The position numbers and the translations under genes were made by a program. Positions 7,927 through 24,977 of a DNA stretch of 64,000 bases are shown here, piece by piece (within the stretch, counting starts at the first letter, position 1; every line of letters begins with the position of its first letter). The stretch lies in the NCBI RefSeq assembly GCF_015712165.1, contig NZ_JADPZX010000001.1:434001-498000 (forward strand). The letters run 5' to 3'. Under the pieces are notes generated by a model. It saw only the letters and a program-made list of their open reading frames with translations, had not been told where the DNA came from and did not search any database. The stretch comes from Streptomyces spinoverrucosus. GTDB taxonomy: Bacteria > Actinomycetota > Actinomycetes > Streptomycetales > Streptomycetaceae.

Positions 7927-7947
7927 GGCCGGCGGCCCTCACAGACG

Positions 7948-7971
7948 CGGCTCCGCGCATCGGCGGAGTCG
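7948..7971 (+). other. Stem-loop between ramC and ramS
   Basis: CGGCTCCGC pairs with GCGGAGTCG (9 bp with one G-U pair, 6-base loop), 22 bases after the ramC stop and 39 bases before the ramS start. It could stabilise the 5' end of a processed ramS message or cause partial termination. Inference only. Confidence 0.35.
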
Positions 7972-8009
7972 TGACACCACCCCGTCCCCATGGATGAAAG
8001 GACACGAAG

Positions 8010-8120
8010 ATGGCACTGCTCGACCTGCAGGCGATGGACACCGAGGAGTACACCGGCGGCCAGAGCACCCTCAGCCTGCTCTCCTGTGTCAGCGCGGCGA
8101 GCATCACGCTCTGCCTCTGA
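8010..8120 (+). CDS. ramS: SapB/AmfS-like class III lanthipeptide precursor
   Basis: A 36-residue peptide missed by ordinary length cut-offs. The leader holds the conserved box LLDLQ (residues 3-7), the LanKC recognition element. The C-terminal part has two consecutive S-x-x-S-x-x-x-C motifs: S19-S22-C26 and S28-S31-C35, exactly the labionin/lanthionine ring pattern of SapB and AmfS. AAAGGA lies about 9 bases upstream of the ATG. If the core starts at T15-G16, as TG does in SapB, the core is 22 residues and the leader only 14, shorter than the 21 of RamS. In related species the product is a surfactant that helps aerial hyphae emerge. Confidence 0.93.
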   Translation: MALLDLQAMDTEEYTGGQSTLSLLSCVSAASITLCL

Positions 8121-8140
8121 CCAGCGGCACCCGCACGGCT

Positions 8141-8177
8141 CCGGGCGGCCACTTCCCGCGAGGGAGGGGCCGCCCGG
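8141..8177 (+). terminator. Strong stem-loop after ramS
   Basis: CCGGGCGGCC pairs with GGCCGCCCGG, and an inner stem CTTCCC/GGGAGG with tetraloop GCGA extends it to about 16 bp with one bulged A. It begins 20 bases after the ramS stop and ends 25 bases before ramA. It probably acts as an attenuator, giving much ramS RNA and little exporter RNA. Confidence 0.7.
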
Positions 8178-8202
8178 GGTCCGTCCGTGAGGCGGTACTC
8201 CC

Positions 8203-9912
8203 ATGGCAGGACTGACGAGACAGGCGGATTCCGGCGTACGGGGGCTGATGCGTCCGGCCGGGCGGCACAGCGGGGCACGGTGCGTGGCGCTGTGCCTCGC
8301 CGGTACGGCCGCCACGGGGGCCGGGCTGCTGCTGCCCGCCGCGCTGGGCCGGGCCCTGGACACCTTGCTGGCGGACGGCTCCGCGACCGGCTGGGTGCTG
8401 TGCTGCGCCGGGCTGGTGCTGCTGATCGCCGTGCTGGACGCGGCCGAGACCGTGCTCGTCGGGACTGTCGACGCGCGGACCACGGCCTGGCTGCGGCGCC
8501 GGGTGAGCGGGCAGGTGCTGGCGCTGGGGCCGCGGGCCGTCACCCGGTTCGGGTCCGGTGAGCTGGTCGCGCGGGTCGTCGGCGACGCCGCGCAGGCCGG
8601 GACCGCGCCCGGCGCCCGCGCCACGCTGCTGGCCGCGTGCGCCGGGCCGCTCGGAGGCGTGGTGGCGCTCGCGCTGATCGACCCGTGGCCGGCGGTGGTG
8701 CTCCTCACCGGGGCGCCCGTACTGGCGCTTCTGCTGCGCGCCCTCGCCCGTGACACCGCCGAGTGCGCCGCCGACTACCAGCGGGTGCAGGGGCGGATCG
8801 CGTCCGCGCTCGCCGAGGCGGTCGCCGGTCACCGCACCGTCCGCGCGGCCGGTACGGCGGACCGGGAGACGGCGCGCATCCTGCGGCCCCTGCCCGAACT
8901 GGCCCGGGCGGGCCACCGCATGTGGCGGGTGCAGGGGCGGGCCGCCGGGCAGGCCGTCGCCGTGGCACCGCTGTTGCAGCTGGGCGTGGTCGCCGTCGCG
9001 GGCGTCCTGCTCGCCCGGCACCGGCTCTCGGTGGGTGAGATGCTCGCCGCCGCCCGGTACGCGGTCCTCGCGACCGGCGTCGGCGTCCTCGTCGGACAGC
9101 TGTCCGGTCTGGTCCGCGCCCGTGCGGCCGCCGCCCGGCTCGCGCAGGTGCAGGCCCAGCCCGCGCCCGCGTACGGAACCCGCCCGCTCCCGCCCGGCCC
9201 CGGCCGTCTCCAACTGCGTGGCGTCACCGCCCGCCTGGGCACCCGCACCGTCCTCGACGGCGTCGACCTCGACCTCCCCGGCGGCACCACCCTCGCCGTG
9301 GTCGGCCGGTCCGGCACCGGCAAGTCCCTGCTCGCCGCGCTCGCCGGACGCCTCGCCGACCCGGACTCGGGCGAGATCCTGCTCGACGGCGTCCCGCTGC
9401 GCGACCTCACCCGCACAGACCTGCGCCGCGCCGTCGCCCACGCCTTCGAACGCCCCGCTCTCCTCGGCACCACCGTGGTGGACACCCTCGCGCTCGGCCT
9501 CCCCTCCCCCGACCCCGACCGCATCCGCGAGGCCGCCCGCACCGCCCACGCCGACGACTTCGTCCGCCGCCTGCCGCAGGGCTACGCCACGCCCTGCGCC
9601 GAGGCACCCCTCTCCGGTGGCGAGGCCCAACGCCTGGGCCTCGCCCGCGCGTTCGCCCACGGCGGCCGCCTGCTGATCCTCGACGACGCCCTGTCCAGCC
9701 TCGACACGGTGACGGAACACCACATCACGCGGGCCCTCCTGGCCCGGGGCCGGACGACCCGCCTCATCGTGGCCCACCGAGCCACCACGGCCGCCCGCGC
9801 GGACGCGGTGGCGTGGCTGGACGGCGGCCGGGTGCGGGCGGTGGGGCGGCACGAGGAGTTGTGGAGGGACGCGGAGTACCGGGCGGTCTTCGGGGACGGA
9901 GGGCGGGCGTGA
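8203..9912 (+). CDS. ramA: ABC transporter half, permease-ATPase (RamA/AmfB-like)
   Basis: A 569-residue exporter half: six-helix membrane domain (about 20-320) and nucleotide-binding domain (325-569). Walker A is GRSGTGKS (368-375), signature LSGGEAQ (470-476), and Walker B LLILDDALSS has aspartate D495 where the catalytic glutamate normally stands. It is expected to pair with RamB to export the lanthipeptide across the cytoplasmic membrane. The D-for-E change fits a heterodimer with one weak ATP site. Its stop overlaps the next start as GTGA. Which half corresponds to RamA or RamB elsewhere is assigned by gene order only. Confidence 0.88.
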   Translation: MAGLTRQADSGVRGLMRPAGRHSGARCVALCLAGTAATGAGLLLPAALGRALDTLLADGSATGWVLCCAGLVLLIAVLDAAETVLVGTVDARTTAWLRRRVSGQVLALGPRAVTRFGSGELVARVVGDAAQAGTAPGARATLLAACAGPLGGVVALALIDPWPAVVLLTGAPVLALLLRALARDTAECAADYQRVQGRIASALAEAVAGHRTVRAAGTADRETARILRPLPELARAGHRMWRVQGRAAGQAVAVAPLLQLGVVAVAGVLLARHRLSVGEMLAAARYAVLATGVGVLVGQLSGLVRARAAAARLAQVQAQPAPAYGTRPLPPGPGRLQLRGVTARLGTRTVLDGVDLDLPGGTTLAVVGRSGTGKSLLAALAGRLADPDSGEILLDGVPLRDLTRTDLRRAVAHAFERPALLGTTVVDTLALGLPSPDPDRIREAARTAHADDFVRRLPQGYATPCAEAPLSGGEAQRLGLARAFAHGGRLLILDDALSSLDTVTEHHITRALLARGRTTRLIVAHRATTAARADAVAWLDGGRVRAVGRHEELWRDAEYRAVFGDGGRA

Positions 9913-11756
9913 GCGACGGGCTTCACCGGCGGGGTCTGCGCTTCCTGGGGGCCCGCCGCCGGGTGCTGGTGCGGCTCGGCGGGTGGTCGGTGCTGGAGAC
10001 GGCGCAGACCTTCCTCGTGGGGTACGCGCCGGCGCGGGCGCTCGACGCCGGGTTTCTGGCGGGGCGTACCGATGTCGGGCTGGCGTGGCTCGGGGTGGCC
10101 GCTGTGGGGGTCGTGGTCGGGGCGTACGGGACCGGCCGGGTGTACTGGGCGGTCGCCGACCTGGTCGAACCGCTTCGGGACCGGCTCGTCACGCGGGTGG
10201 TGGCGCGCGGGGTGCGGGAGGCGGACTCTGCGGCGCTGTCCCGGCTCACCCAGCAGGTGGAGATCGCCCGGGACACCTTCGCGGGCCTGGTGATGGTCTC
10301 GCGCTCGTTCGTGTTCACCACGGTCGGCGCCCTGATCGGCCTGTTCTCGCTCGCCCCGGCGCTGCTGCTGGTCGTCGTGCCGCCCCTGGTCGCCGGGCTC
10401 GGCCTGTTCCTCGCCTCGCTGCGGCCCCTGGCGCGCCGGCAGGAGGCCTTGCTCACCGCCGACGAGGCCCTCGCCGGGCACCTGGGCACCGTGTGCCCGG
10501 GCCTGCGGGACATCACGGCGGCCGGGGCGGAGGCCCGGATCGCCGCGGACGTCGGGGAGCGCGTCGACGCGGAGCTGCGGGCCGCCCGCTCGCTGGCCCG
10601 CTGGTCCGTGCTGCGCGTGGCGTCCCTCGCGGTCGGCGGACAGCTGCCGATCGTGCTGCTGCTGGCCGCGGCGCCCCTGCTCCGCACCCACGGCGTCAGC
10701 GCCGGCGCGCTGGTCGGTGCCGTCGCCTACGTCACCCAGTCCCTGCTCCCCGCGCTGCGCAACCTGGTGCACGGCCTGGGCACCAGCGGCTCCCGCCTCG
10801 CGGTCGTCCTCCGACGCCTCGCACCGCCGGAGCCCCCCATGAGCGCCACGGGCACACCAGCCCCACCCCGCCCGAGCGGCGACCCGAACGCCGCCCTCGC
10901 CTTCTCCTGCGTCACCTTCGCCTACGGCCCCACCAGCACCCCCGTCGTCGAAAACCTCGACCTCACCCTCCCCCCGGGCTCCCACCTGGCCGTCGTAGGC
11001 CCGAGCGGCATCGGCAAGTCGACCCTCACCGCCCTCGCCGCCGGGCTGCTCACCCCCCGGCACGGCACCGTCCACGTCTGCGGGCACCCCGTCCCCGGAC
11101 CGGACGCCGCCGCGCGCCGCGTCCTGATCCCGCAGGAGGCCTACGTCCACACCGGCACCCTCGCCGAGAACCTGGGCCACCTCCGCCCCGACCCGGTCCC
11201 CGAGGAGGAGCTGCTCGCCGCGGCCGAGGCGGTCGGGCTGACGCCGCTGCTCGACGCCCTCGGCGGACCTCGGGCGCAGGTCGACCCGGCCGCGCTGTCG
11301 GCGGGCGAGCGCCAGCTGATCGCGCTGACCCGGGCCTACCTGTCGTACGCGCCGCTCGCCCTGCTGGACGAGGCGACCTGTCATCTGGACCCGGAGGCGG
11401 AGGAGCGCGCGGAGCGGGCGTTCGCGGCGCGGCCGGGCGGGACCCTCGTCGTGGTCGCCCACCGCATCAGCTCGGCCCGGCGCGCCGACCGCGTGCTGCT
11501 CATGGACGGCCCGCGCACCGCGTACGGCACCCATGACGAGCTGGTCCGGCGCTCACCGTCGTACCGCGCCCTGGTCGGTGGCCGGCCGCCGCGGTCACAG
11601 CCAGCCCTCGCCGCGCGAGATGCGGATCGCGTCGACGCGGTTGCGGGCCCCGGTCTTGCGGGTGATGGCCGCCATGTAGTTGCGCACCGTCCCGTGGGAC
11701 AGGTGCAGGCTCCCCGCGATCTCCGCGACGGAGGCGCCCTCGGCGGCCAGGGCTAA
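9909..11756 (+). CDS. ramB: ABC transporter half, permease-ATPase (RamB/AmfA-like)
   Basis: A 615-residue partner of RamA with membrane domain (about 15-320) and ATPase domain. Walker A GPSGIGKS (364-371), a degenerate signature LSAGERQ (463-469) and a full Walker B LLDEAT (D487, E488). The weak signature here and the weak Walker B of RamA belong to the same composite site, as in TAP-like heterodimers. The GTG start is set by the GTGA overlap with ramA. The reading frame runs on about 50 residues past the usual end and overlaps the opposing ramR by 162 bases; its TAA stop (11754-11756) is the reverse complement of a ramR TTA codon. Confidence 0.86.
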   Translation: MSDGLHRRGLRFLGARRRVLVRLGGWSVLETAQTFLVGYAPARALDAGFLAGRTDVGLAWLGVAAVGVVVGAYGTGRVYWAVADLVEPLRDRLVTRVVARGVREADSAALSRLTQQVEIARDTFAGLVMVSRSFVFTTVGALIGLFSLAPALLLVVVPPLVAGLGLFLASLRPLARRQEALLTADEALAGHLGTVCPGLRDITAAGAEARIAADVGERVDAELRAARSLARWSVLRVASLAVGGQLPIVLLLAAAPLLRTHGVSAGALVGAVAYVTQSLLPALRNLVHGLGTSGSRLAVVLRRLAPPEPPMSATGTPAPPRPSGDPNAALAFSCVTFAYGPTSTPVVENLDLTLPPGSHLAVVGPSGIGKSTLTALAAGLLTPRHGTVHVCGHPVPGPDAAARRVLIPQEAYVHTGTLAENLGHLRPDPVPEEELLAAAEAVGLTPLLDALGGPRAQVDPAALSAGERQLIALTRAYLSYAPLALLDEATCHLDPEAEERAERAFAARPGGTLVVVAHRISSARRADRVLLMDGPRTAYGTHDELVRRSPSYRALVGGRPPRSQPALAARDADRVDAVAGPGLAGDGRHVVAHRPVGQVQAPRDLRDGGALGGQG

Positions 11757-12203: not shown

Positions 12204-12513
12204 CGATGTCCCTTCCACTTGCCGTCCGCAGGTTCATGGTGTTGAGCGCGTGCCCCATTCTTGGCGGCCCGCGCCTCGTCGGGGCACGCAAAACCGGCCA
12301 ACGGGGTGCGTGGGGGCGCGCGGACCGCGCCCGTGCTCCGTCCCGCGCATCGAGTCCTGTGGCATGGGCCGGGTCGGTCGGGGTACGCGGTTGCTTTGTC
12401 CAGTCGCCGCCGGTGCCCCCGTGAGTGGGGGCGCTCGCCGTGCGCGGCGGGCCGTGACGAGGGAGATTTGATCCCTGGGACTCGTCCCGCGGCGCTGCGA
12501 GGAGGTGGTCGGC
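12204..12513. other. Divergent intergenic region between ramR and phosphatase no. 2
   Basis: This 310-base gap must hold the ramR promoter (leftwards) and that of the downstream phosphatase (rightwards). The only clear structure is a hairpin at 12415-12432, GCCCCC/GGGGGC with loop GTGAGT, extendable by a wobble pair. I see no convincing gene and no confident promoter boxes. Confidence 0.5.
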
Positions 12514-14649
12514 GTGCCCGACAAGCAGGCGCCCGCGGAGCGCCGGGCCCCACCCGGCGGTTCCCTGATGTCGCTGGCGCTGGCCTCGATGATGGACGGC
12601 GTGCACGCGCACTCCGGCGCGGTGTACCTGCTGTCCGACGACGAGTCCGTACTGGAGATGGCGGTCATGGCCGGGCTGCCCCGGGCGTTCGCGGCGCCCT
12701 GGGAGCGGGTGGGGCTCGGCGCCCCCATCCCGATCGCCGAGGCCGCGCGCGAGCGGCGGCTGATCTGGGTGGGCGGCGAGGACGACATGGCGCGCCGCTA
12801 CCCACGGGTCGCCGTGGTCCTGCCGTACCCCTTCGCGCTGGCCGCGCTGCCGGTGGCGACCGCGACCAAGGTGTACGGGGCGGTGTTCGTGACCTGGCCC
12901 GGCTCGCAGTCCCACGAGCTCTCCGACCGGGAGCGGGGGCAGCTGGCCTCGGCCTGCGACCGGCTCGCCGTGCGGCTCGAGCGGGCCGCCGAGGAGAGCC
13001 GCCCGGTGCTCCCGGAGGCCGATCCGCTCACCACGCTGGGGAGAGCGGCCGGCACGCTGGGCTCGGTCGAGGCGACGCGCATGGTGGCGCGGCTGCCGTA
13101 CGGGCTGTGCTCGCTGGATCTGTACGGGCGGATCTCCTTCGCCAACCCGGCGGCGGCCGAGCTGATCGGCGTACCGACCAGTCGGCTGCTCGGCACCCAT
13201 CTGTGGGCGGCGGTGCCGTGGCTGAACGACCCGGTGTACGAGGACCGGTACCGGGCGGCGCTGATCAGCCAGCACGTCACGTCGTTCGTGGCGCTGCGGC
13301 CGCCGGGCGAGTGGCTGTCGTTCCGGCTGTATCCGAGCGCCACGGGGCTGAGCGTCCGGGTGAGCAGGGCGCGGGCCGTGTCGGAGATGGGCCGGACCGC
13401 GCCCCCGCCCAGCGACGGTCCGTCCCGTCTGGTGACCATCACGCAGCTGTTGAGCCTCGCCGGTGCGCTCACCGAGGCGGTGAGCGTGCAGGACGTGGTG
13501 CAACTGGTCGCCGAGGAGATCGCGCCGGCCGTGGGCAGTCAGGCGCTGGTCGTGCTCGGCTCCCGGGCGGGGCGGCTGCATGTGCTGGGGCACCGCGGCT
13601 ACCCGGACCCGCACCTCGTGGAGCGGTTCGACGGTACGCCGCTGAGCGCGCCGACGCCGGGCGCGCACGCGCTGAACAGCGGGGTGCCCGCGTTCTTCGA
13701 GTCCCAGGCGGAGCTGGAGCGGCTGTATCCGATCCGGCACGCCACCCCGGACGGCTTCGCGGCCTGGGCCTATGTGCCGCTGATCGCCTCGGGACGCCCG
13801 GTGGGCACCTGTGTGCTGGCCTACGCCGAGCCGCACGCCTTCCCCGCCGACGAGCGGGCCGTCCTGACCAGCCTCGGCGGGCTGATCGCCCTGGCGCTGG
13901 AGCGGGCCCTGCTGTACGACGCCAAGCACCAGCTGGCGCACGGGTTGCAGGCCGCTCTGCTGCCCCACTCGCTGCCGCCGCTGCCGGGCATCGACACTGC
14001 CGCCCGCTACCTGGCCGGGACCCGGGGCATGGACATCGGCGGCGACTTCTACGACGTGGTGCCCGTCGAGGGGCTGGCGGCCGCGGTGATCGGGGATGTG
14101 CAGGGGCACAACGTGACGGCGGCCGGGCTGATGGGGCAGATCCGTACCGCCGTGCGCGCGTACACGACGGTGGGGCAGTCGCCGGCCGAGGTGATGAGCA
14201 GGACCAACCGGCTGCTCTTCGACCTCGGGTCCGAACTGTTCGCCAGCTGTCTGTATCTGCGGCTCGACCCGGGACGCGGGCGGGCGGTGATGGCCCGGGC
14301 CGGGCATCCGCCGCCGCTGCTGAGGCGGCCGGACGGCCGGGTCCGCGTGCTGGACCTCGCGGGTGGGCCGCTGCTGGGGATCGACGGGGCGGCGACGTAT
14401 CCGACGACCGAGGTGGACCTGACGCCGGGTTCGGTGCTCGTCCTCTACACCGACGGTCTCGTCGAGTCGCCCGGTGTCGACATCGAGGAGGCGCTCGTGG
14501 AGCTGGGGCGGCGGCTGGCGGTGGCCGGGGACCGGCCGCTGGACGAGCTGGCCGACGTGCTGGTGGGGCAGGAGGGGGGTGGGGAGGAGCGGATCGACGA
14601 TGTGGCGCTGCTGCTGTTGCGGGCGACGGGGGCTGTGGGGGACGACTGA
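12514..14649 (+). CDS. SpoIIE-type PP2C phosphatase with GAF and PAS domains (no. 2)
   Basis: A 711-residue regulator: GAF-like region (about 17-165), PAS-like region (185-290, with PYGLCSLDLYGRISFANPAA), second GAF (310-465) and a C-terminal SpoIIE phosphatase domain (480-705) with IGGDFYDVVP near 508, VIGDVQGHN and the metal-site VLYTDGLVES. It lacks the ATPase domain of phosphatase no. 1. Start GTG at 12514 is preferred because GGAGG lies eight bases upstream; a GTG three codons earlier overlaps that site. Expected role is dephosphorylation of an anti-anti-sigma factor in partner switching. Its position next to ramR is suggestive but shared control is not shown. Confidence 0.84.
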   Translation: MPDKQAPAERRAPPGGSLMSLALASMMDGVHAHSGAVYLLSDDESVLEMAVMAGLPRAFAAPWERVGLGAPIPIAEAARERRLIWVGGEDDMARRYPRVAVVLPYPFALAALPVATATKVYGAVFVTWPGSQSHELSDRERGQLASACDRLAVRLERAAEESRPVLPEADPLTTLGRAAGTLGSVEATRMVARLPYGLCSLDLYGRISFANPAAAELIGVPTSRLLGTHLWAAVPWLNDPVYEDRYRAALISQHVTSFVALRPPGEWLSFRLYPSATGLSVRVSRARAVSEMGRTAPPPSDGPSRLVTITQLLSLAGALTEAVSVQDVVQLVAEEIAPAVGSQALVVLGSRAGRLHVLGHRGYPDPHLVERFDGTPLSAPTPGAHALNSGVPAFFESQAELERLYPIRHATPDGFAAWAYVPLIASGRPVGTCVLAYAEPHAFPADERAVLTSLGGLIALALERALLYDAKHQLAHGLQAALLPHSLPPLPGIDTAARYLAGTRGMDIGGDFYDVVPVEGLAAAVIGDVQGHNVTAAGLMGQIRTAVRAYTTVGQSPAEVMSRTNRLLFDLGSELFASCLYLRLDPGRGRAVMARAGHPPPLLRRPDGRVRVLDLAGGPLLGIDGAATYPTTEVDLTPGSVLVLYTDGLVESPGVDIEEALVELGRRLAVAGDRPLDELADVLVGQEGGGEERIDDVALLLLRATGAVGDD

Positions 14650-14723: not shown

Positions 14724-16058
14724 TCAGTTGGTGCCGTTCAGCCCGGAGCCGTCCTCGATGCCGGACTGGTCGCCGACACCGGCTTCCTCACCGGCCTGCT
14801 CCCCGCCGACGGCTTCACCGCCGCCCGCCTGCTCGCCGGCACCGGCCTCTTCGCCCGCGCCTTCGCCGACGCCTTCGCCCGCACCGGCACCTTCGCCGGC
14901 ACCATCGCCCGCACCGGCACCCTCACCGGCACCGCCGGCGTCGCCCGCGCCCAGCGTCGCACCGACCGCCGCCAGGGCCGTGGTGACCGGCTGGAAGAAG
15001 GTCTCGCCGCCGACCGTGCAGTCGCCGCTGCCGCCCGAGGTCAGGCCGATGGCGAGGCCGTCCTGGGTGAACATCGAGCCGCCGCTGTCGCCCGGTTCGG
15101 CGCAGACGTTGGTCTGGATGAGACCGGTGACCGTGCCCTCGGGGTAGTTGACGGTGGCGTCGAGCCCGGTGACCGTGCCGTCGGCGAGGCCGGTGGTGCT
15201 GCCCATCCGGAACACCTCCTGGCCGACGGCGGCTTCCGCGGCCTGGAGGATCGGGACGGTCTGCCCGCCGCCGACGTTGACGTCGCTCGGTGCCTCGGTC
15301 GCGGGGTCGTCGTACTTGACGAGCGCGAAGTCGCCCTCGCCCGGGAAGACGGCCTGGTCGACGGTGGCGATCGGGGCGCCGTTCTGCGCGTCGGACCACT
15401 CGGCCACCGCGACCCCGCAGTGACCGGCGGTCAGGAAGGCCGGGGAGCCGTCGCCCGCGGTGACGTTGAAGCCGAGGGAGCAGCGGGAGCCGCCGCCGAA
15501 TATCGCGTCGCCGCCGGAGGCGAACGTCTTGAAGGTGCCGGCGGACTTCTGGATGGTCGCCATGCCGGAGCCGAGGCTCTGCACGGTCGACTCCAGCGTG
15601 TCCCACTTCTCGCCGGTGACCGTGCTGTCGGCGGTGACCCGGATCTTGTTCGTCCTGGGGTCGACGGCCCACGCGGTGCCCGGGATGGTGGCCTCGGTCT
15701 TCAGCGTCTGCGCGGCGGACTTGAGTTCGGCCGTGCTGTTCTCGACCTGGCGGACCGCCGCGCCCGCCTTCTTGGCCTGGACGACCAGCTGGTTGTTGTC
15801 GCCGACCACGTTGATGACGAGCTGCTGGTTGTCGGCGTCGTAGTAGGAGCCGGCGAAGGCGTCGCCGAGCAGCCCGGCGAGCTGCGAGGCGAGGTCCGAG
15901 GCGTCGCCCGCCTTCAGGGTCTTGGGTGCGGCGGCCGTGTCCTCGGCACCGTCCTGGGACGCGTTGGCGTTCGGCAGCAGGAGTGCCGCCGCTCCGAGCG
16001 CCGCCACGCTGCCCGCCGCGATCGCGGCCTTGCGCTTCGGAATTCGCTTGTGACTCAA
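14724..16058 (-). CDS. Secreted S1 serine protease, streptogrisin-like, with low-complexity tail
   Basis: A 444-residue preproenzyme. The signal peptide (about 1-33) begins MSHKRIPKRK; a pro-region of the alpha-lytic type follows (45-178); the mature chymotrypsin-fold domain starts near 180 in SGGDAIFGGGSRCSLGF. Catalytic triad: H213 (TAGHCG), D243 (GDFALVKYDD), S325 (GDSGG); disulfides C193-C214 and C319-C347 are likely. After residue 370 comes about 75 residues of Gly/Ala/Glu with no Cys and no recognisable binding domain. Start is TTG, with AGGAGG ten bases upstream, and matches streptogrisin signal peptides. A subtilisin-inhibitor gene lies 15 kb away. Confidence 0.9.
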   Translation of the reverse strand: MSHKRIPKRKAAIAAGSVAALGAAALLLPNANASQDGAEDTAAAPKTLKAGDASDLASQLAGLLGDAFAGSYYDADNQQLVINVVGDNNQLVVQAKKAGAAVRQVENSTAELKSAAQTLKTEATIPGTAWAVDPRTNKIRVTADSTVTGEKWDTLESTVQSLGSGMATIQKSAGTFKTFASGGDAIFGGGSRCSLGFNVTAGDGSPAFLTAGHCGVAVAEWSDAQNGAPIATVDQAVFPGEGDFALVKYDDPATEAPSDVNVGGGQTVPILQAAEAAVGQEVFRMGSTTGLADGTVTGLDATVNYPEGTVTGLIQTNVCAEPGDSGGSMFTQDGLAIGLTSGGSGDCTVGGETFFQPVTTALAAVGATLGAGDAGGAGEGAGAGDGAGEGAGAGEGVGEGAGEEAGAGEQAGGGEAVGGEQAGEEAGVGDQSGIEDGSGLNGTN

Positions 16059-16659: not shown

Positions 16660-17118
16660 TACGGCCGGTAACCGATCAACAACGGTCTGTTCCGGACGGT
16701 GAGCGGAATCCTGGCTTCAGGGAATCTGCACATCGAATACTCAACCAAGTCACCGGCACCCGGGGTTCTGCACAATCGCGCGCCCCGGGTACGCCTTTGG
16801 GGCGGGAGTGCCGGATTCGCCGACCGGGCGGCAAGGGGTCGGTACGGGGCGATGCCGGGCGGCATGTGAAGAAGTCGCCGACAAGCCGTGCGCACACCTG
16901 CACGGATGGCGGCTACTGGGACTCAAGTGCCCTGGTGAGGCCACTGATTGATTGGAAGCCCACGGTCGCCGCGTGCTTTGATCCATCGCACCGCGGGGTC
17001 CGCCCAAAGCTCCTCGGCCAGGGGTGCCCGGCGCCCACCCGCGGTCGCGGCCGTCCATCTGTCCCCAGAGGGGGCCGCTCCCCCCTTGTGAAATTGCCAT
17101 ACGAAGGGAAGTTCCATC
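16660..17118. other. Long intergenic region upstream of the double-glycine peptide gene
   Basis: These 459 bases are less GC-rich than the neighbours in places (16665-16750, 16915-16960) and should contain the peptide operon promoter. A half-palindrome ACTCAAGTGCCCTG lies at 16921-16934, 185 bases before the peptide start, close to a motif also found upstream of the terpene synthase and of the ricin-domain gene. AAGGGAAG just before the peptide ATG is its ribosome-binding site. No protein gene is convincing here. Confidence 0.5.
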
Positions 17119-17334
17119 ATGAACTCCACCCCCCAGGTTGAGACCGTCGAGATCTCCGACGCCGAGCTCGACAACGTCTCCGGCGGCCTCTCCGTGAACG
17201 CCGTGAACACCGTCGTCGGCGCGGTGGACGGTATCGCCCCGGTCTCCGGCCTGGTCGACACGGTCGTCGGCACCGTCGAGGGTGTCACCGGCCTGAACAC
17301 CGCTCCGGTCACCAACCTGGTCGCCGGTCTCTGA
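17119..17334 (+). CDS. Secreted peptide precursor with double-glycine leader
   Basis: A 71-residue precursor. The leader ends in ELDNVSGG (16-23), a classic class II bacteriocin cleavage site read by C39 peptidases; the downstream exporter has such a peptidase. The predicted 48-residue core (24-71) has no Cys, Lys, Arg or aromatic residue, three acidic residues, and is rich in Val, Gly and Thr. It contains an internal repeat: NTVVGAVDG at 30-38 and DTVVGTVEG at 47-55, 17 residues apart, and APVSGLV / APVTNLV at 40 and 62. Peptides like this are often auto-labelled type A2 lantipeptide, but no LanM or other modification enzyme is near. Function unknown. Confidence 0.85.
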   Translation: MNSTPQVETVEISDAELDNVSGGLSVNAVNTVVGAVDGIAPVSGLVDTVVGTVEGVTGLNTAPVTNLVAGL

Positions 17335-17356
17335 TCGCACACCAGTACCGTTGAGT

Positions 17357-17380
17357 CCCGGAGCCGCACCCGGCTCCGGG
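17357..17380 (+). terminator. Stem-loop after the peptide precursor gene
   Basis: CCCGGAGCCG pairs perfectly with CGGCTCCGGG across CACC (10 bp stem), 22 bases after the precursor stop and 45 bases before the HlyD-like gene. It probably lowers read-through so that precursor RNA exceeds exporter RNA. Confidence 0.7.
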
Positions 17381-17425
17381 GCTCTTCGGATGTCGTAACG
17401 CTCTCCACCCGGTGAGGGAAATTCC

Positions 17426-18232
17426 GTGCAGTTCCGCCAACAGGCCCTCGCCAAGCTCCAGTCGCCGGAGGAGCTCGACCTTCCGGTGCGCCTCGCCCGC
17501 CCGCAGGGCTGGCTCGTACTGTCCGTGACCGTGGTCGCGATGGCTGCCGCGTCCGTGTGGGCGGTGACCGGCTCGGTGACCTCCACGGTGAGCGCGCCCG
17601 CCGTCCTCACGCACGGCGAGGGCAGCTACATCCTGCAGAGCCCGGTCGCGGGCCAGGTCACCGAGATCCTCGCCGAGGAAGGCGCACGGCTCCCCGCGAA
17701 CTCCCCCGTCCTGAAGGTCCGTACGAACGAGGGCGAGACCGTCGTCCGCACCATCGCCGCCGGCCGCCTCACCGCGCTCGCCGCCACCATCGGCCAGATC
17801 ATCGCCACCGGCGCGAACGTCGCCGCCGTCGAGAAGGTCGCCGACGCGGACGACCCGCTGTACGCCACGGTGTACGTCCCCGCCGAGAACGCCGGCTCCA
17901 TCCCAGCGAACGCGGCCGTGGACCTGACCGTGCAGACGGTCCCGACCCAGGAGTACGGCGTCCTGCGCGGCCATGTGAAGTCCGTGGACCGCGCCCCGCA
18001 GTCGCCGCAGGAGATCGCCGCGTTCCTCGGCGACAGCCAGCTCGGCGAGCAGTTCACCAAGGACGGCCGCCCGGTCGCCGTGCTCGTCCGACTGGACAAG
18101 TCGTCCGGCACCGAGAGCGGCTACAAGTGGTCGTCGGCGGACGGACCGCCGTACCCCCTCACCTCCATGACGATGGCCACGGGCTCGATCCGGCTGGCCG
18201 ATCAGCGTCCCGTCGATTGGCTGCTGCCGTGA
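17426..18232 (+). CDS. HlyD-like secretion accessory protein
   Basis: A 268-residue protein with a short cytoplasmic N-terminus, one membrane helix (about 29-49), and an extracellular part with a biotinyl-lipoyl-like hairpin (GEGSYILQSPVAGQVTEILA, 65-84) typical of NHLM-bacteriocin secretion proteins and HlyD adaptors. It should bridge the exporter and the cell envelope. Start GTG follows GAGGGAA. It lies between the peptide gene and the peptidase-ABC gene, overlapping the latter as GTGA, so it is part of one operon. In a Gram-positive host its exact structural role is unclear. Confidence 0.82.
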   Translation: MQFRQQALAKLQSPEELDLPVRLARPQGWLVLSVTVVAMAAASVWAVTGSVTSTVSAPAVLTHGEGSYILQSPVAGQVTEILAEEGARLPANSPVLKVRTNEGETVVRTIAAGRLTALAATIGQIIATGANVAAVEKVADADDPLYATVYVPAENAGSIPANAAVDLTVQTVPTQEYGVLRGHVKSVDRAPQSPQEIAAFLGDSQLGEQFTKDGRPVAVLVRLDKSSGTESGYKWSSADGPPYPLTSMTMATGSIRLADQRPVDWLLP

Positions 18233-20451
18233 CCACCGCCGCACCGGAAACCCGCGGCCGCCGCCGGGCCGCCCCGCCCAAGCGCACCGTCCCCAAGGGC
18301 CGCCGCAAGACCGTCCGCACCCCCACCGTCCTCCAGATGGAGGCCGTCGAGTGCGGCGCCGCCTCCTTGGCGATGGTGCTCGGCCACTACGGCAAGCACG
18401 TCCCGCTGGAGGAGCTGCGCATCGCCTGCGGTGTCTCCCGCGACGGCTCGCGCGCCAGCAATCTGCTGAAGGCGGCGCGCAGTTACGGCCTGACCGCCAA
18501 GGGCATGCAGATGGACCTGGCCGCCCTCGCCGAGGTGAAGGCGCCGGCCGTCCTGTTCTGGGAGTTCAACCACTACGTCGTCTACGACGGCATGGGCCGC
18601 CGCTTCGGCCGCCGGGGCGTGTTCATCAACGACCCCGGCAAGGGCCGGCGTTTCGTACCGATGGAGGACTTCGACGGCAGTTTCACCGGCGTCGTCCTCA
18701 CCATGGAGCCGGGCGACGACTTCACGCGCGGCGGGCGCAAGCCGGGAGTCTGGGGCGCGATGCCCGCCCGGCTGCGCGGCACCGCGGGCACGATGCCCGC
18801 CGCCGTGCTGGCGAGCCTGCTGCTGGTCGTGGTCGGCGCGGCCGTACCCGCGCTCAGCCGGACCTACATCGACATGTTCCTGATCGGCGGGCAGACCTCG
18901 CTGCTGGACGTGCTGTTCGCGTCCATGGGCGCGTGCGTGCTGCTCACGCTGGTGCTGACCTGGCTGCAACAGGCCAACCTGCACCACGGCCGCATCATCT
19001 CCTCGACCCTGTCCAGCGCCCGTTTCCTGCGGCACCTGCTGCGGCTGCCGGTCACCTTCTTCTCCCAGCGCAGCCCGGCAGACCTGGTGCAGCGCCTGCA
19101 GTCGAACGACGCGGTGGCCGAGACGCTGGCCCGCGACCTGGCGGCGGCGGGCGTGGACGCGGTGGTCGTGGTGCTGTACGCCGTACTCCTCTATACCTAC
19201 GACCCGCAACTCACCTTCGTCGGCATCGGTGTGGCGTTGCTGAACGTCGTCGCGATGCGGGTCGTGATCCGGCTGCGCGCGACCCGCACGGCGAAGCTGC
19301 GCGCGGACAACGCCCGGCTCACCAACACGGCGTACACCGGCCTGCAGCTGATCGAGACGATGAAGGCGACCGGCGGCGAGGACGGCTACTTCCGCAAGTG
19401 GGCCGGACAGCACGCCACCACCCTGGAGGAACAGCAGCGGCTCGGCGTGCCGAGCGCCTGGCTGGGCGTGGTCGCGCCGACGCTGGCCACGCTCAACAGC
19501 GCGCTGATCCTGTGGATCGGCGGCATGCGGGCGATCGAGGGCGCCATCTCTGTCGGCCTGCTGGTCGCCTTCCAGGCGCTGGTCACGCGTTTCACCGCCC
19601 CGCTGACCCGGCTCAACGGCGTCGCGGGCCGCATCCAGGACTTCGCGGCCGACGTGGCCCGGCTGAAGGACGTGGAGAACTTCCGCACGGATCCGCTGTA
19701 CGACCGCGCGGGCGGCGACTCCACGCGCAGGCTGCACGGCCATGTCGAGCTGGAGAACATCACCTTCGGCTACAGCCCCCTCGACAAGCCGCTGCTCACC
19801 GGCTTCGATCTGACCGTCGGACCGGGTCAGCAGGTCGCGCTCGTCGGCGGCTCGGGCAGCGGGAAGTCGACCGTGTCCCGGCTGATCTCGGGCCTGTACA
19901 CGCCCTGGGAGGGCGTGATCCGCATCGACGGGCAGCGCCTTGAGGACATCCCGCGTGGCGCGCTCGCGGCCTCCGTCTCCTTCGTCGACCAGGACGTGTT
20001 CCTGTTCGAGGGCTCGGTGCGGGACAACGTGGCGCTGTGGGACCCGTCCATCCCGGACGAGGCGGTGGTCGAGGCGCTGAAGGACGCCGCGCTGCACGAC
20101 GTGGTGATGCGCCGCCCCGGCGGCATCCACAGCCGGGTCGAGCAGGACGGCCGCAACTTCTCCGGCGGGCAGCGCCAACGCCTGGAGATCGCCCGGGCGT
20201 TGGTGCGCCGGCCCAGCATTCTGGTGCTGGACGAGGTGACCAGCGCCCTCGACGCCGAGACCGAGCAGGCCGTCATGGACAATCTGCGCCGGCGTGGCTG
20301 CGCCTGCGTGGTGATCGCACACCGGCTCAGCACCGTGCGGGACAGCGACGAGATCGTCGTACTCCAGCACGGCACGATCGTGGAACGCGGCCGGCACGAC
20401 GAGCTGGTGGCGAGCGGCGGCGCGTACGCGGCGCTGGTCAGGGAGCGGTGA
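18229..20451 (+). CDS. Peptidase-containing ABC exporter (NHLM ABC-1 / C39 type)
   Basis: A 740-residue exporter that should cleave the double-glycine leader and move the peptide out. The C39 cysteine-peptidase domain (about 30-165) has C42 in MEAVECGAAS, H115 in FNHYVVYDG and D135 in FINDPGKG. A six-helix membrane domain follows (185-480), then the ATPase: GGSGSGKS, FSGGQRQR and ILVLDEVTSALD, all intact. The GTG start is fixed by a GTGA overlap with the HlyD-like gene. The next gene starts one base after its stop. The intact Cys/His pair strongly ties this protein to the ELDNVSGG leader upstream. Confidence 0.92.
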   Translation: MTTAAPETRGRRRAAPPKRTVPKGRRKTVRTPTVLQMEAVECGAASLAMVLGHYGKHVPLEELRIACGVSRDGSRASNLLKAARSYGLTAKGMQMDLAALAEVKAPAVLFWEFNHYVVYDGMGRRFGRRGVFINDPGKGRRFVPMEDFDGSFTGVVLTMEPGDDFTRGGRKPGVWGAMPARLRGTAGTMPAAVLASLLLVVVGAAVPALSRTYIDMFLIGGQTSLLDVLFASMGACVLLTLVLTWLQQANLHHGRIISSTLSSARFLRHLLRLPVTFFSQRSPADLVQRLQSNDAVAETLARDLAAAGVDAVVVVLYAVLLYTYDPQLTFVGIGVALLNVVAMRVVIRLRATRTAKLRADNARLTNTAYTGLQLIETMKATGGEDGYFRKWAGQHATTLEEQQRLGVPSAWLGVVAPTLATLNSALILWIGGMRAIEGAISVGLLVAFQALVTRFTAPLTRLNGVAGRIQDFAADVARLKDVENFRTDPLYDRAGGDSTRRLHGHVELENITFGYSPLDKPLLTGFDLTVGPGQQVALVGGSGSGKSTVSRLISGLYTPWEGVIRIDGQRLEDIPRGALAASVSFVDQDVFLFEGSVRDNVALWDPSIPDEAVVEALKDAALHDVVMRRPGGIHSRVEQDGRNFSGGQRQRLEIARALVRRPSILVLDEVTSALDAETEQAVMDNLRRRGCACVVIAHRLSTVRDSDEIVVLQHGTIVERGRHDELVASGGAYAALVRER

Positions 20452-20452
20452 G

Positions 20453-23269
20453 ATGAGAGCCGTGCACGGCGACGACTACGTCCTCGGCGCCCTCGGCTCG
20501 GTGGGCACGCCCATCGACTGCGCCGGGTTCAGCCGTCTGGACCTGGAAGGGCCGCAGGTGCTGTGGCTGGTCGCGGCGGGCGCCCTGGACCTGTTCGCGG
20601 TGGACGCCGCCCAGCAGGGCCACTGGCACCACCTCGGTCGGCTGGAGGCGGGCTCGCTGCTGCTCGGCCCGGTCGCGGGCCCGCAGCACACGCTGATCGC
20701 CCGCCCGGTCCGGGACTGCGTGGTGCACCGCATCGGGCTGCGCGAGCTGTACCAGCCGGCGCAGACGCAGACCTGGTCGTACGACGAGTACGGCAACCCG
20801 CAGTACGTCCCGCCCACCACGAGCCCGCTGGAGTACGCCCTCGCGCTCGGTGTCGGCCGTGGCCTGTCGATCCTCTTCCAGGCACCGACGGCCGGTGAGC
20901 GGGCCGCCGAGATGACCGACGACGACGTGTTCTGGATGCAGGTGCCGCCCGGCAGCGTCCAGTACGGCTCGCTGTACGGCGCGGAGGCGGCCGCCGACCT
21001 GCTGATGGACCCGGCCCTGTGGCAGACCATGGTCGACCAGCAGTACCGGCTGCTGACCACGCTGGACCGCTGGATCGAACAGCTGGAGCGGACCCACGAG
21101 ACCCGTACGGCCGCCGGTATCAAGGCCGGTGAGCAGGTGCGCGCGCAGGCCGACCGGACGCTGCTCGCGGCGATCGGCAAGCCGTCGGCCAAGCGCACCA
21201 CCGCCGCCGACGCGGACGCCACGTACGCCGCGTGCAAGCTGGTCGCCGCCGCGGCCGGGATCCCGCTGGCCGACCCCGGGCACGGCGGCACCGAGAGCGA
21301 CCGTCTCGACCCGGTCGAACGCATCGCCCTCGCCTCGCGCGTCCGTACCCGCGCGGTACGGCTTGACGGCAGCTGGTGGCATGACAACGTGGGCCCGCTG
21401 GTGGGTCAGCGGGCCCTGTCGGGGGCGCCGGTCGCGCTGCTGTGGCGGCGCGGCGGCTATGTGGCGGTGCATCCGGCGACCGGACGTGAGACGCCGATCG
21501 AGAAGGCCAACGCGCCGGAGTTCGAGCCGCGCGCGGTGATGTTCTACCGGCCGCTGCCCGAACGCCCGCTGGGTCCGCTCGGGCTGCTGCGGTTCTGCAT
21601 GCGGGGCACGCGCGGGGACGTGACCGGGCTCCTGCTCAGCGGGCTGGTGACGGTGGCGATCGGCGCGCTGGTGCCCATCGCGACCGGCAAGGTGCTGGGC
21701 GAGTTCGTGCCGAAGGCCCAGGCGGGGCTGATCGCGCAGGTCTGTCTGGCGGTGATGGTCAGCAGTGTCGTCGCGGCGGCCTTCATGCTGCTGCAGAACA
21801 TGACGATCCTGCGCCTGGAGGGTCGTATCGAGGCGACGCTCCAACCGGCGGTGTGGGACCGGCTGCTCAGGCTCCCGACGAAGTTCTTCACCGGCCGCTC
21901 CACGGGTGAGCTGGCCAGTGCGGCCATGGGCATCAGCGCGATCCGCCGCCTGCTCGCGGGAGTCGGGCCCACGGTCGCCCAGTCGCTCACCGTCGGAGCG
22001 ATGAGCCTCGGGCTACTGCTCTGGTACAGCGTTCCGATGACGCTGGCCGCGGTGGGCATGCTCGTCGTGATCGCCGCCGTCTTCCTGGGCCTCGGGCTGT
22101 GGCAGGTGCGCTGGCAGCGCCGCCTGACCGTGCTCACCAACAAGCTCAACAACCAGGCCTTCCAGACCCTGCGCGGCCTGCCCAAGCTGCGGGTCGCGGC
22201 GGCCGAGAACTACGCCTACGCCGCGTGGGCGCGGGAGTTCGCGCGCAGCCGTGAGCTCCAGCAGCGCCTGGGCCGGATCAAGAACCTCACCACCGTGCTC
22301 GGCGCGATCTATCTGCCGCTGTGCTCGCTGCTGATGTTCATGCTGCTCGCGGGCCCGGCGCGGGGCTCGATGTCCGCCGCCGACTTCCTCGCCTTCAACA
22401 CCTCGGTGACGATGCTGCTCACGTCGGTCACGCAGATCACGGGCGCGTTCGTGTCGCTGGTGGCCGCGCTGCCGCTGTACGAGCAGATCAAGCCGGTGCT
22501 GCAGGCGACGCCGGAGGTGCGTACGGCCAGCACCCGGCCGGGCCCGCTCACGGGGGCCGTGGAGGCGCGGCGGCTGTCCTTCCGCTACTCCGACGACGGC
22601 CCCCTCGTCCTGGACGACGTGTCGTTCGAGGTGCGGCCCGGCGAGTTCGTGGCGGTCGTCGGGCCGTCCGGCTGCGGCAAGTCGACGCTGCTGCGCCTGC
22701 TGATCGGCTTCGACAAGCCGGGCTCCGGGAGTGTCCTCTACGACGGTCAGGACCTGGCCGCCCTCGATCAGTCGGCCGTACGGCGGCAGTGCGGGGTGGT
22801 GCTCCAGCACGCCCAGCCGTTCACCGGCTCGATCCTGGACGTCATCTGCGGCACCGAGCCGTACACGCCGGAGGAGGCGATGGCGGCGGCCGAGATGGCG
22901 GGGCTCGCCGAGGACATCAAGCGGATGCCGATGGGCCTGCACACCATCGTCGCGGGCAACGGGGCGATCTCCGGCGGCCAGCGGCAGCGGCTGATGATCG
23001 CCCAGGCGCTGATCCGCCGGCCGCGCATCCTCTTCTTCGACGAGGCGACCAGCGCCCTCGACAACGAGACGCAGCGCAAGGTCATCGAGAGCACCAAGGC
23101 CCTCAACGCCACCCGCATCGTCATCGCGCACCGCCTGTCGACGGTGCTGGACGCCGACCGCGTCATCGTGATGGAGGACGGCAAGGTCGCCCAGCAGGGT
23201 CCACCGGCGCAGCTGCTCGCGGACACGGGCGGCAGGCTGCACGAGCTGGTGCGGCGGCAGTTGACGTAG
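20453..23269 (+). CDS. Second large ABC protein (NHLM ABC-2 type)
   Basis: A 938-residue protein. About 300 N-terminal residues have no peptidase motif; the first 120 resemble a cyclic-nucleotide-binding-like barrel (LVAAGALDLFAVD, GSLLLGPV), as in NHLM ABC-2 proteins. An exporter membrane domain (390-690) and an ATPase with GPSGCGKS, ISGGQRQR and ILFFDEATSALD follow, all motifs intact. It probably works as partner to the peptidase-ABC protein; the role of the N-terminal part is unknown. ATG begins one base after the preceding stop, so the two are tightly coupled. No immunity or modification gene follows. Confidence 0.88.
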   Translation: MRAVHGDDYVLGALGSVGTPIDCAGFSRLDLEGPQVLWLVAAGALDLFAVDAAQQGHWHHLGRLEAGSLLLGPVAGPQHTLIARPVRDCVVHRIGLRELYQPAQTQTWSYDEYGNPQYVPPTTSPLEYALALGVGRGLSILFQAPTAGERAAEMTDDDVFWMQVPPGSVQYGSLYGAEAAADLLMDPALWQTMVDQQYRLLTTLDRWIEQLERTHETRTAAGIKAGEQVRAQADRTLLAAIGKPSAKRTTAADADATYAACKLVAAAAGIPLADPGHGGTESDRLDPVERIALASRVRTRAVRLDGSWWHDNVGPLVGQRALSGAPVALLWRRGGYVAVHPATGRETPIEKANAPEFEPRAVMFYRPLPERPLGPLGLLRFCMRGTRGDVTGLLLSGLVTVAIGALVPIATGKVLGEFVPKAQAGLIAQVCLAVMVSSVVAAAFMLLQNMTILRLEGRIEATLQPAVWDRLLRLPTKFFTGRSTGELASAAMGISAIRRLLAGVGPTVAQSLTVGAMSLGLLLWYSVPMTLAAVGMLVVIAAVFLGLGLWQVRWQRRLTVLTNKLNNQAFQTLRGLPKLRVAAAENYAYAAWAREFARSRELQQRLGRIKNLTTVLGAIYLPLCSLLMFMLLAGPARGSMSAADFLAFNTSVTMLLTSVTQITGAFVSLVAALPLYEQIKPVLQATPEVRTASTRPGPLTGAVEARRLSFRYSDDGPLVLDDVSFEVRPGEFVAVVGPSGCGKSTLLRLLIGFDKPGSGSVLYDGQDLAALDQSAVRRQCGVVLQHAQPFTGSILDVICGTEPYTPEEAMAAAEMAGLAEDIKRMPMGLHTIVAGNGAISGGQRQRLMIAQALIRRPRILFFDEATSALDNETQRKVIESTKALNATRIVIAHRLSTVLDADRVIVMEDGKVAQQGPPAQLLADTGGRLHELVRRQLT

Positions 23270-23475: not shown

Positions 23476-23646
23476 ATGAGCCCCGCGAGGACCGCACCCA
23501 CCGATGAGGACGCCCAAGGCGGCTTTGATCATCAGATGCCGCCGCGGCGGATGCCGCCGCTACCCGGCACGCTGATCCAGACCGGCACCGACTCCTACCG
23601 GCTGAGGGCCACCGAGAACGAGTACCGGTCCGCCGGGCGATCGTGA
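23476..23646 (+). CDS. Small hypothetical protein coupled to phosphatase no. 3
   Basis: A possible 56-residue hydrophilic protein, MSPARTAPTDEDAQ at its start, rich in Pro and Arg, with no family I recognise. AAGGG lies about 12 bases upstream of the ATG. Its stop TGA shares a base with the next ATG as TGATG, a classic termination-reinitiation junction, and the next gene has no ribosome-binding site of its own; that is the main argument that it is translated. A reading from 23380 would add 32 residues but lacks support. It may be merely a translated leader. Confidence 0.45.
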   Translation: MSPARTAPTDEDAQGGFDHQMPPRRMPPLPGTLIQTGTDSYRLRATENEYRSAGRS

Positions 23647-24977
23647 TGGCGGGCGGCAAGGAGGAGGAAGGACCGAAGCGGCCGCCCCGCCCCGACTGGT
23701 TGCGGCGTCTGGATGCCGAGGTGGGCCGGGTCGATGAGCAGCTGCGCGCACTGGCCGCCGCCAAGGACCGGATTCAGGGCCTGCTGGACGCAGTGGTGGC
23801 CATCACTCGGGAGTCGGAGTTGCCCGGGGTGCTGCACCGCATCGTGGCCACCGCCATGGACTTGGTCGGCGCCCGCTACGGGGCACTGGGAGTTCTTGAC
23901 GAGTCCGGCGAGCGCCTGGCGCAGTTCATCGCCGTCGGCCTGTCCGAGCAGGAACGCGCGGCCCTGGCCGAGGTGGGGTTTCCTCGCGGTCTGGGCGTGC
24001 TCGGACACCTGATCCGCCACCCCGATCCCTTGCGGATCGACGCCATCTCCTCCCACCCGTCCTCGGTCGGGTTCCCACCCGGCCACCCATGCCTGCGCAC
24101 CCTGCTGGGCGTCGCCGTCAGCGTCCGCGGCGAAATCTACGGCGACCTCTACCTCTCCCAGCGACGCGACGGACGGCCCTTCGGCATCCAGGACGAGCGC
24201 ATCGTCGTCGCCCTGGCCAGCGCCGCCGGCATCGCGATCGAGAACGTCCGCCTCCTCGAACAGGTTCGTGCCGCATCGGAACATTTCCAGCGGCGTTTGC
24301 TGCCGACGTTGCCCGACATGCGGCCCTTCGACGCCGCCGCCATCTACCGGCCCGCCGCCGAACCCCACCACGTGGGCGGCGACTGGTACGACGCCATCCT
24401 GCTTCCGGACGGCGCGGTGGCGGTCGTCATCGGCGACGTGGTCGGCCACGATCTGCATGCCGCCGCCGCCATGGCCTCCACCCGTCACATGCTGCGCGCT
24501 TTGCTGTTCGCCCTGCGTACTCCGCCCAGCGCGGTCCTCGCCCAGCTCGATCGCACCCTTGAAGCCATCACCGACAACCCCGTCACCACCACCAGCCTGG
24601 CGCGCATCGAACCCGTGGGGGCTGCCTGGCGGCTGCACTGGAGCACCGCGGGCCACGTCCCACCTTTGCTGATCACTCCTGGGGGCCGGGCGGAATACCT
24701 GGTCGCGGAGCCCGGACTACCACTGAACGTCGACAGCGGGCAGCCCCGCCTCGACCACACCCACCCCCTGCCCCCGGACGCCACCGTGGTCTTCTTCACC
24801 GACGGCCTTGTCGAACACCCCGACCACTCCATCGACGAGAGCCTGAACGAACTCGCCGAACTCGCCACCCTGCACGCGGCCCTGCCCCTGCAGGACTTCG
24901 TGCAGACCCTGGCCGACCACCATCCCAGCGACGGGCACGACGACATGGCCATCCTCGCCCTGCGCACCCCACGCTGA
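23646..24977 (+). CDS. SpoIIE-type PP2C phosphatase with GAF domain (no. 3)
   Basis: A 443-residue protein: short coiled N-terminus (20-45), GAF domain (45-195, with LVGARYGALGVLDESGERL and ASAAGIAIENVRLLEQ as in DevS-like GAF sensors), and a SpoIIE phosphatase domain (210-443) with VGGDWYDAIL near 243, VIGDVVGHD and VFFTDGLVEHP. Start: ATG within TGATG; a GTG one codon earlier is possible. It should act on an anti-anti-sigma factor. A MASE1 membrane protein follows after 114 bases on the same strand and could supply a sensory input; that link is inference. Confidence 0.85.
   Translation: MAGGKEEEGPKRPPRPDWLRRLDAEVGRVDEQLRALAAAKDRIQGLLDAVVAITRESELPGVLHRIVATAMDLVGARYGALGVLDESGERLAQFIAVGLSEQERAALAEVGFPRGLGVLGHLIRHPDPLRIDAISSHPSSVGFPPGHPCLRTLLGVAVSVRGEIYGDLYLSQRRDGRPFGIQDERIVVALASAAGIAIENVRLLEQVRAASEHFQRRLLPTLPDMRPFDAAAIYRPAAEPHHVGGDWYDAILLPDGAVAVVIGDVVGHDLHAAAAMASTRHMLRALLFALRTPPSAVLAQLDRTLEAITDNPVTTTSLARIEPVGAAWRLHWSTAGHVPPLLITPGGRAEYLVAEPGLPLNVDSGQPRLDHTHPLPPDATVVFFTDGLVEHPDHSIDESLNELAELATLHAALPLQDFVQTLADHHPSDGHDDMAILALRTPR

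Follow-up and report, generated by a model that had tools for sequence, protein, structure and literature searches.

The analysed window is a 64,000 bp stretch of the Streptomyces spinoverrucosus genome (RefSeq assembly GCF_015712165.1, contig NZ_JADPZX010000001.1, positions 434,001 to 498,000 of the forward strand). It contains a probable peptide export locus of four open reading frames packed in an operon-like manner, which encode, in this order, a short precursor peptide with a double-glycine leader, an HlyD-like adaptor, an ATP-binding cassette (ABC) exporter with a C39 peptidase domain and a second ABC protein. All four, including the 71-residue precursor, lie where the first-pass annotation, a reading of the same DNA without database searches, had placed them, and the core predicted after ELDNVSGG has the 48 residues claimed there. 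The start codon of the second ABC gene is located one base past the stop codon of the C39 exporter gene. The features of the locus and its surroundings are listed in Table 1.

Table 1. Features of the export locus and neighbouring genes (window coordinates).
Feature	Position	Strand	Remarks
Shared upstream motif GCGTGCTTTGATCCATCGCACCGCGG	16971..16996	+	Shared with orphan precursors of other genomes; putative regulator or sigma-factor site
Putative ribosome-binding site GAAGGGA	17103..17109	+	Likely; read from the sequence
Leader peptide, 23 residues	17119..17187	+	Ends DAELDNVSGG; part of the 71-residue precursor (17119-17334)
Core peptide, 48 residues and stop	17188..17334	+	Rich in Val, Gly and Thr; acidic; no Cys, no Lys/Arg
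Hairpin, perfect, 14 bp (G-U pairs counted)	17353..17384	+	Between precursor and hlyD; probably a partial terminator
HlyD-like adaptor	17426..18232	+	GTG start; TIGR03794 146.4 bits (below cut-off 156.2); Pfam HlyD_3
C39 peptidase-permease-ATPase exporter	18229..20451	+	GTG start overlaps hlyD stop; TIGR03796 1032.8 bits
Second ABC permease-ATPase	20453..23269	+	No peptidase; about 254 extra N-terminal residues; TIGR03797 881.9 bits from residue 255
N-terminal extension of second ABC protein	20453..21217	+	About 254 residues
Alpha-lytic-type protease gene	14724..16058	-	Pro_Al_protease and trypsin; upstream of precursor
Class III lanthipeptide (SapB/ram-type) cluster	5185..11756	+	Outside the conserved unit; syntenic in a subset of species
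LanKC	5185..7926	+	NF038151 1165.7 bits, cut-off 575
RamS-like precursor, 36 residues	8010..8120	+	Read from the DNA
Two ABC genes of the SapB/ram-type cluster	8203..9912 and 9813..11756	+	
SpoIIE-type phosphatase gene	2700..5144	-	GAF or PAS domains
SpoIIE-type phosphatase gene	12505..14649	+	GAF or PAS domains
SpoIIE-type phosphatase gene	23643..24977	+	GAF or PAS domains

Exporter Proteins and Leader Type

The C39 exporter and the second ABC protein exceed the NCBIfam cut-offs of the NHLM cassette families TIGR03796 (853.3 bits) and TIGR03797 (709.4 bits), respectively. The HlyD-like protein scores under the curated line of TIGR03794, though it is a clear homologue, and its best stretch (residues 103-268) corresponds to profile positions 252-417. 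The C39 protein aligns with PCAT1 (4ry2) over residues 33-736 and with ComA (8hf4) over residues 36-738. The peptidase residues Q36, C42, H115 and D135 are present, so the earlier claim of an intact Cys/His/Asp set holds, and all four are kept in 112 of 113 aligned relatives, the remaining alignment being too short to show two of them. The N-terminal extension of the second ABC protein lies outside the TIGR03797 model and has no Pfam match.

A Gly-Gly leader adjoins a C39 exporter with intact catalytic residues, which makes the precursor a putative double-glycine substrate. Its score with the generic double-glycine model TIGR01847 is 13.6 (cut-off 15.7), and the NHLP/Nif11 leader models TIGR03793 and TIGR03798 gave no match (NCBIfam, to E 0.1). 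The description of the locus as an NHLM-type export set with a plain peptide can be retained, but the peptide is not an NHLM cargo in the strict sense, having a 23-residue leader and no NHLP/Nif11 match.

Distribution and Conservation of the Set

Close loci were fetched for the best 80 of 394 relatives. All four proteins were matched in the same order in 80/80 of these loci, the match to the second ABC protein being shortened in three. Together with 34 loci chosen for divergence, 114 linked loci were examined, and the precursor was found in 112. The first-pass annotation had proposed looking across Streptomyces for the precursor next to both ABC types, and this check confirmed the set. The conservation of the four genes is far beyond chance. 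Precursor homologues numbered 672 at E ≤ 0.001.

The distribution was assessed in one draw of 151 Streptomyces genomes, with an HlyD-like match at E ≤ 1e-30 taken as exporter-positive. Of these genomes, 111 were exporter-positive and 91 had a precursor match at E ≤ 1e-6. In 18 of the 20 genomes with the HlyD-like protein and no precursor match, a diverged precursor was found directly upstream. The exceptions are G026 and G036, which match the HlyD-like protein at only 46% and 34% identity; one of them sits at a contig end. An order-wide draw of 245 genomes gave matches at E ≤ 1e-4 in 145, confined to two of eight genera. The linked locus of one divergent species (L160) carries two different leader-bearing precursors ahead of the exporter genes. 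The alpha-lytic-type protease gene upstream of the precursor is kept in 80/80 close loci and is not beside the set in distant lineages; among distant linked loci, a relative occurs only in L123, L124 and L125, several kb off.

Orphan Precursors Elsewhere in the Genomes

The weaker precursor hits are unlinked genes with an almost identical leader and different cores. These hits and those of a profile search with one orphan class (A1) make up the orphan set. Orphans were found in 43/111 exporter-positive and 0/40 exporter-negative genomes (Fisher p 2e-7, uncorrected for relatedness). Forty-four orphan loci were fetched from 38 of the 43 genomes; the other five (G060, G069, G079, G092 and G137) are counted from search hits. 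The leader is readable in all 44, by a strict pattern in 41 and by a looser one in L163, L170 and L174. No match to the HlyD-like protein of the locus was found in the 44 loci; ABC matches there are only generic (26-41% identity), and there is one 29% match to part of LanKC. Among the 25 largest clusters of orphan neighbour genes, recurrence is limited to at most 5/44 loci, with the same or similar core types.

A Peptidase_C39 search covered 29 of the 43 orphan genomes and 12 exporter-negative genomes. The linked exporter is present in 29/29 of the former and is the sole C39 protein in an ABC-length frame in 28. The remaining genome, G117, has a second C39 exporter beside a LanM, and three of the 28 (G006, G043 and G065) have an additional weak C39 hit in a frame of 191-245 residues. 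A C39 match was also obtained in 4/12 exporter-negative genomes.

The orphan cores have a net charge of 0 or lower in 40 of 41 cases. Several unlike core types recur across species with conserved cores; they were read by eye and not counted, because single-linkage clustering of the 41 merged 24 of them through low complexity. The profile of one orphan class gave 624 matches at E ≤ 0.001, which may include linked-type precursors. A Pfam scan of nine genes near orphans revealed no maturase of ribosomally synthesised and post-translationally modified peptides (RiPPs); the nine are an MFS transporter, an acyltransferase, two sigma-factor-like proteins, an M23 peptidase, a DUF4262 protein, a BTAD-domain protein and two without a family. 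The orphan type with cores like LAGAASVEAPLVGG (L117, L165, L167 and L168) has a conserved neighbourhood and adjoins a sigma-factor-like gene, both scanned copies of which (L117 and L165) contain sigma-70 regions.

Shared Upstream Motif

The motif CGTGCTTTGATCC..CGCACCGCGG is common to linked and orphan precursors whose core types are unlike, and in most cases it lies 75-165 nt ahead of the start codon. A scan of the window with up to three mismatches gave one match to the motif, the expectation from shuffles being 0.00. The heptamer TTTGATC, expected by chance 0.01 times per 320 nt, lies upstream of 26/41 orphans and of all three read later (L163, L170 and L174), of 75/80 close linked precursors and of 13/32 divergent ones. 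A mixed linked sample with the heptamer in 19/38 consists of six close loci, all positive, and these 32 divergent loci, and the split figures are used here.

The 12-mer CGTGCTTTGATC occurs at 41 sites in 61 genomes, compared with two sites for the reversed control. Thirty-seven of the 41 precede a precursor of the same family (28 read directly, nine by coordinates), and the four sites without a precursor are in G034, G046, G047 (one site) and G012 (one site). The S. spinoverrucosus genome has a single CGTGCTTTGATC site, within the motif in the window. One site revealed a precursor type with a variant leader (L202), which is also the type of L163, L170 and L174.

Hairpin between the Precursor and Exporter Genes

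Judged by the best hairpin between precursor and hlyD, 107/113 linked loci, the window included, have a stem of at least nine uninterrupted base pairs; such a stem was found in 35 of 400 random 110-nt stretches of orphan loci. Covariation was assessed on 26 hand-picked hairpins, which do not represent a random draw from the 91 distinct ones. In these, 99.7% of cells pair, both sides change in 10 of 16 pairs, and 0/500 shuffles reached the covariation score. The hairpin was considered as a peculiarity of the linked locus, and this was rejected: similar hairpins (CCCCGG..CCGGGG) follow 16/41 orphans. Their presence after orphans makes a terminator likelier, and the hairpin is probably a terminator that is leaky at the linked locus.

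Cargo Composition and the Question of Modification

None of the 101 distinct linked cores contains Cys. They are rich in Val, Gly, Thr, Leu and Ala, with a net charge from -5 to 0. The ratio of nonsynonymous to synonymous substitution rates (dN/dS), calculated for 74 distinct close sequences, is 0.30 in the leader and 0.59 in the core. Many database entries name the precursor 'type A2 lantipeptide', and a gene of this name is mentioned for a different strain in a passage of PMC13047742. The name is rejected here since the linked cores have no Cys for thioether rings. Nor does the Cys-free core correspond to that of a class III (SapB-type) peptide, in which LanKC forms rings from Ser and Cys.

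LanM over the cut-off was not found in the S. spinoverrucosus genome. It occurs in 25 of the 111 exporter-positive genomes and is absent from 86, class III LanKC over the cut-off is absent from 37, and 29 have neither. The flanking genes, compared partly by gene lengths and strands, differ between distant lineages. A linked modification gene as a member of the conserved unit was therefore rejected, the flanks being lineage-specific. No maturase was seen in the conserved unit; 169 flanking genes were not scanned against family libraries, and YcaO and radical-SAM proteins were not searched. The first-pass annotation had stated that no modification gene lies nearby, which is correct for LanM and not for class III LanKC, whose cluster lies about 9 kb upstream. 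It had also proposed to check whether the set is conserved without a modification gene, and the varying flanks and the 29 genomes without either enzyme agree with such conservation.

Neighbouring SapB/ram-Type Cluster

The LanKC gene ends about 9 kb upstream of the export set. According to a hand tally, in which links across contigs of draft genomes are invisible, 21 of the 91 precursor-positive genomes have LanKC on the same strand at a distance of 7-11 kb upstream. The LanKC cluster is syntenic in some members of the genus and lies outside the export unit. The window also contains three genes for SpoIIE-type phosphatases, on both strands.

Relation to Known Systems

The four-gene set is already known from the literature as the SCO0753-0756 type, which the first-pass annotation had not foreseen. 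The identity is likely, judging from the architecture, a homologue in S. violaceoruber (P0302) and 77-residue forms of the precursor. SCO0753 is described as a hydrophobic peptide without cysteines, and the organisation of SCO0753-0756 (the precursor, followed as here by a homologue of HlyD and two ABC components) is conserved in many Streptomyces (PMC6629963). The published length of 77 residues would fit an upstream start that adds six residues to the 71-residue form, as in P0048. No structural difference between the systems is known, and the passages of PMC6629963 contain no orphans, motif or hairpin. In a dispersed-growing S. coelicolor strain with an activated sco5282 allele, SCO0753 was the top overexpressed gene (log2 6.3), the exporter genes reached log2 4.25-4.4, and in the null mutant the SCO0753-0756 genes were almost silent (PMC6629963). 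Passages of PMC6414726 and PMC5882110 mention only a change in SCO0756 expression.

The same three exporter families make up the NHLM/NHLP cassette (TIGR03794/03796/03797), and NHLP/Nif11-type precursors, as here, have hypervariable cores and are sometimes encoded far from modification and export genes (PMC2887384). They differ in the position of Gly-Gly, on average 83 for NHLP and 70 for the Nif11 type, and in modification by LanM-like enzymes or cyclodehydratases (PMC2887384); the present leader is 23 residues long, and no modification gene is linked to the set. The cyanobacterial C39/HlyD 'bacteriocin' clusters likewise combine C39 ABC exporters with double-glycine precursors; in most groups a cluster has several precursors, and those of the NHLP/Nif11 families are mostly acidic (PMC3140520). 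In cyanobacteria, however, precursors were sought around the clusters along with modification enzymes (PMC3140520), whereas the additional precursors described here are solo, dispersed in the genome and in many cases motif-bearing. The short leader, the Cys-free linked cargo without a linked maturase, the solo orphans and the shared motif are the distinguishing features of the present system. No description of the orphan cargos or the upstream motif was found in the literature searched, mostly without subscription papers.

In the streptococcal ComAB/BlpAB systems, a single C39 exporter similarly handles several double-glycine peptides from different loci; these are Firmicute pheromone and bacteriocin systems without a second NHLM-type ABC gene. 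SapB (RamS/AmfS) is, like the cargo here, a small secreted Streptomyces peptide, but LanKC provides it with lanthionines and its cluster includes separate ABC genes, whereas the present peptide has no Cys. Two SapB-cluster genes rise together with SCO0753 in an aor1 deletion mutant, in addition to the partial synteny of the SapB-type cluster with the export set.

Proposed Function of the Locus

We consider it likely that the SCO0753-0756-type locus acts as an NHLM-type exporter hub with dispersed, co-regulated and unmodified cargo peptides. The C39 exporter, its non-peptidase ABC partner and the HlyD-like adaptor would recognise the short conserved double-glycine leader, the C39 domain would cut after Gly-Gly, and a peptide of about 48 residues, acidic, hydrophobic, free of Cys and unmodified, would leave the cell. 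Unlinked genes with the same kind of leader and other cores, many of them behind the CGTGCTTTGATC motif, would supply further cargos, and the hairpin after the linked precursor would let only part of the transcripts continue into the exporter genes. Since the leader and often the motif are shared, the unlinked cores probably use the same exporter and regulator, a role that the first-pass annotation had not foreseen. The gene architecture, leader similarity, motif sharing, the hairpin and the single-exporter genomes are observations on the sequences; the cleavage, export, lack of modification, co-regulation and surface or morphogenetic role of the peptides are our inferences.

Several observations weigh against this scheme. 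The core dN/dS of 0.59 indicates mild constraint only, and 7/41 orphan cores have one Cys. Ser and Thr may be modified by an unlinked enzyme or by maturase families outside the search. Confidence in the modelled precursor structure is low (mean predicted local distance difference test score, pLDDT, 59.5; predicted template modelling score, pTM, 0.25), so the model was not used as support, and no paper detecting the product was found in the literature searched. The comparison of orphan and exporter occurrence ignores phylogeny. The S. spinoverrucosus genome itself has no orphan at E ≤ 1e-4, so the hub may have a single cargo here. The upstream motif is not universal: exact TTTGATC is absent from 15/44 orphans and 19/32 divergent linked precursors, and within the most divergent set of linked loci (L141-L160) it was found in L143 alone, which means that the others have a drifted motif or none. 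No regulator is linked to the motif. In the published data SCO0753 is induced more strongly than the exporter genes, which is compatible with a partial terminator and does not prove it, because the fold changes show induction and not mRNA amount. The surface role draws on the published expression data and the partial SapB-type synteny.

A class II (non-lantibiotic) bacteriocin system exporting membrane-active antimicrobials seems unlikely. Bacteriocins typically have double-glycine leaders and C39/HlyD export sets, several cargos per exporter are known in bacteriocin-producing streptococci, and one database entry (P0206) labels an orphan a class IIb bacteriocin. However, the linked cores and nearly all orphan cores are acidic or neutral, and, since distant lineages have different flanking genes, the set appears to have no accompanying immunity gene (no scan for immunity families was made). 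Signalling peptides, that is, pheromones sensed by a two-component system, are a doubtful explanation, somewhat more so than bacteriocins. The shared motif fits a regulon, the peptide pheromone VP1 model scores the leader at 17 bits (cut-off 85), a weak resemblance, and passages of PMC6629963 report dependence on the sco5282/sco5283 two-component system. Several unlike orphan core types, however, would fit a single receptor badly. Hydrophobic cores of 48 residues are also long for pheromones.

Modification in trans, for instance by the class III LanKC 9 kb upstream, is improbable: the cores have Ser and Thr and the enzyme lies upstream in the 21 genomes tallied above, but there is no Cys for thioethers, the LanKC cluster is equipped with a RamS-like precursor and ABC genes of its own, and many exporter-positive genomes lack LanKC or LanM over the cut-off. 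It is just as improbable that the orphans are relics, i.e., precursor genes duplicated with their promoters, moved and functionless; the 5′ regions of one orphan class and of the linked gene do agree over about 60 nt (by eye), so duplication gave rise to at least this class, but several unlike types of core are found with conserved sequence in several species, one class has the 624 profile matches mentioned above, which may include linked-type ones, and the leader and often the motif are kept while the remainder differs.

For the exporter hub, action of its cargos at the hyphal surface is perhaps to be favoured over a bacteriocin or pheromone function, because of the acidic hydrophobic cores, the published links to dispersal and SapB expression and the partial SapB-type synteny. 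A wider scheme can be offered tentatively, as a possibility on which we would not rely. In such an exopeptide regulon, a regulator acting at CGTGCTTTGATC would drive a species-specific set of dispersed unmodified double-glycine peptides, which would leave through one NHLM-type exporter and coat or tune the hyphal surface alongside SapB, setting mycelial dispersal; cores would be swapped, with leader and promoter unchanged.

Most of the sampled Streptomyces genomes carry the exporter set, and its peptide is annotated as a lantibiotic, which it cannot be. In passages of PMC6629963, the S. coelicolor counterpart is the gene most overexpressed in a strain with dispersed hyphae. The unlinked orphan precursors and their shared upstream motif appear to be new here. 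Mining around an exporter overlooks such distant solo precursor genes, and the shared leader and motif make orphan loci searchable, so that candidate cargos can be listed for each genome and the regulator may be found.

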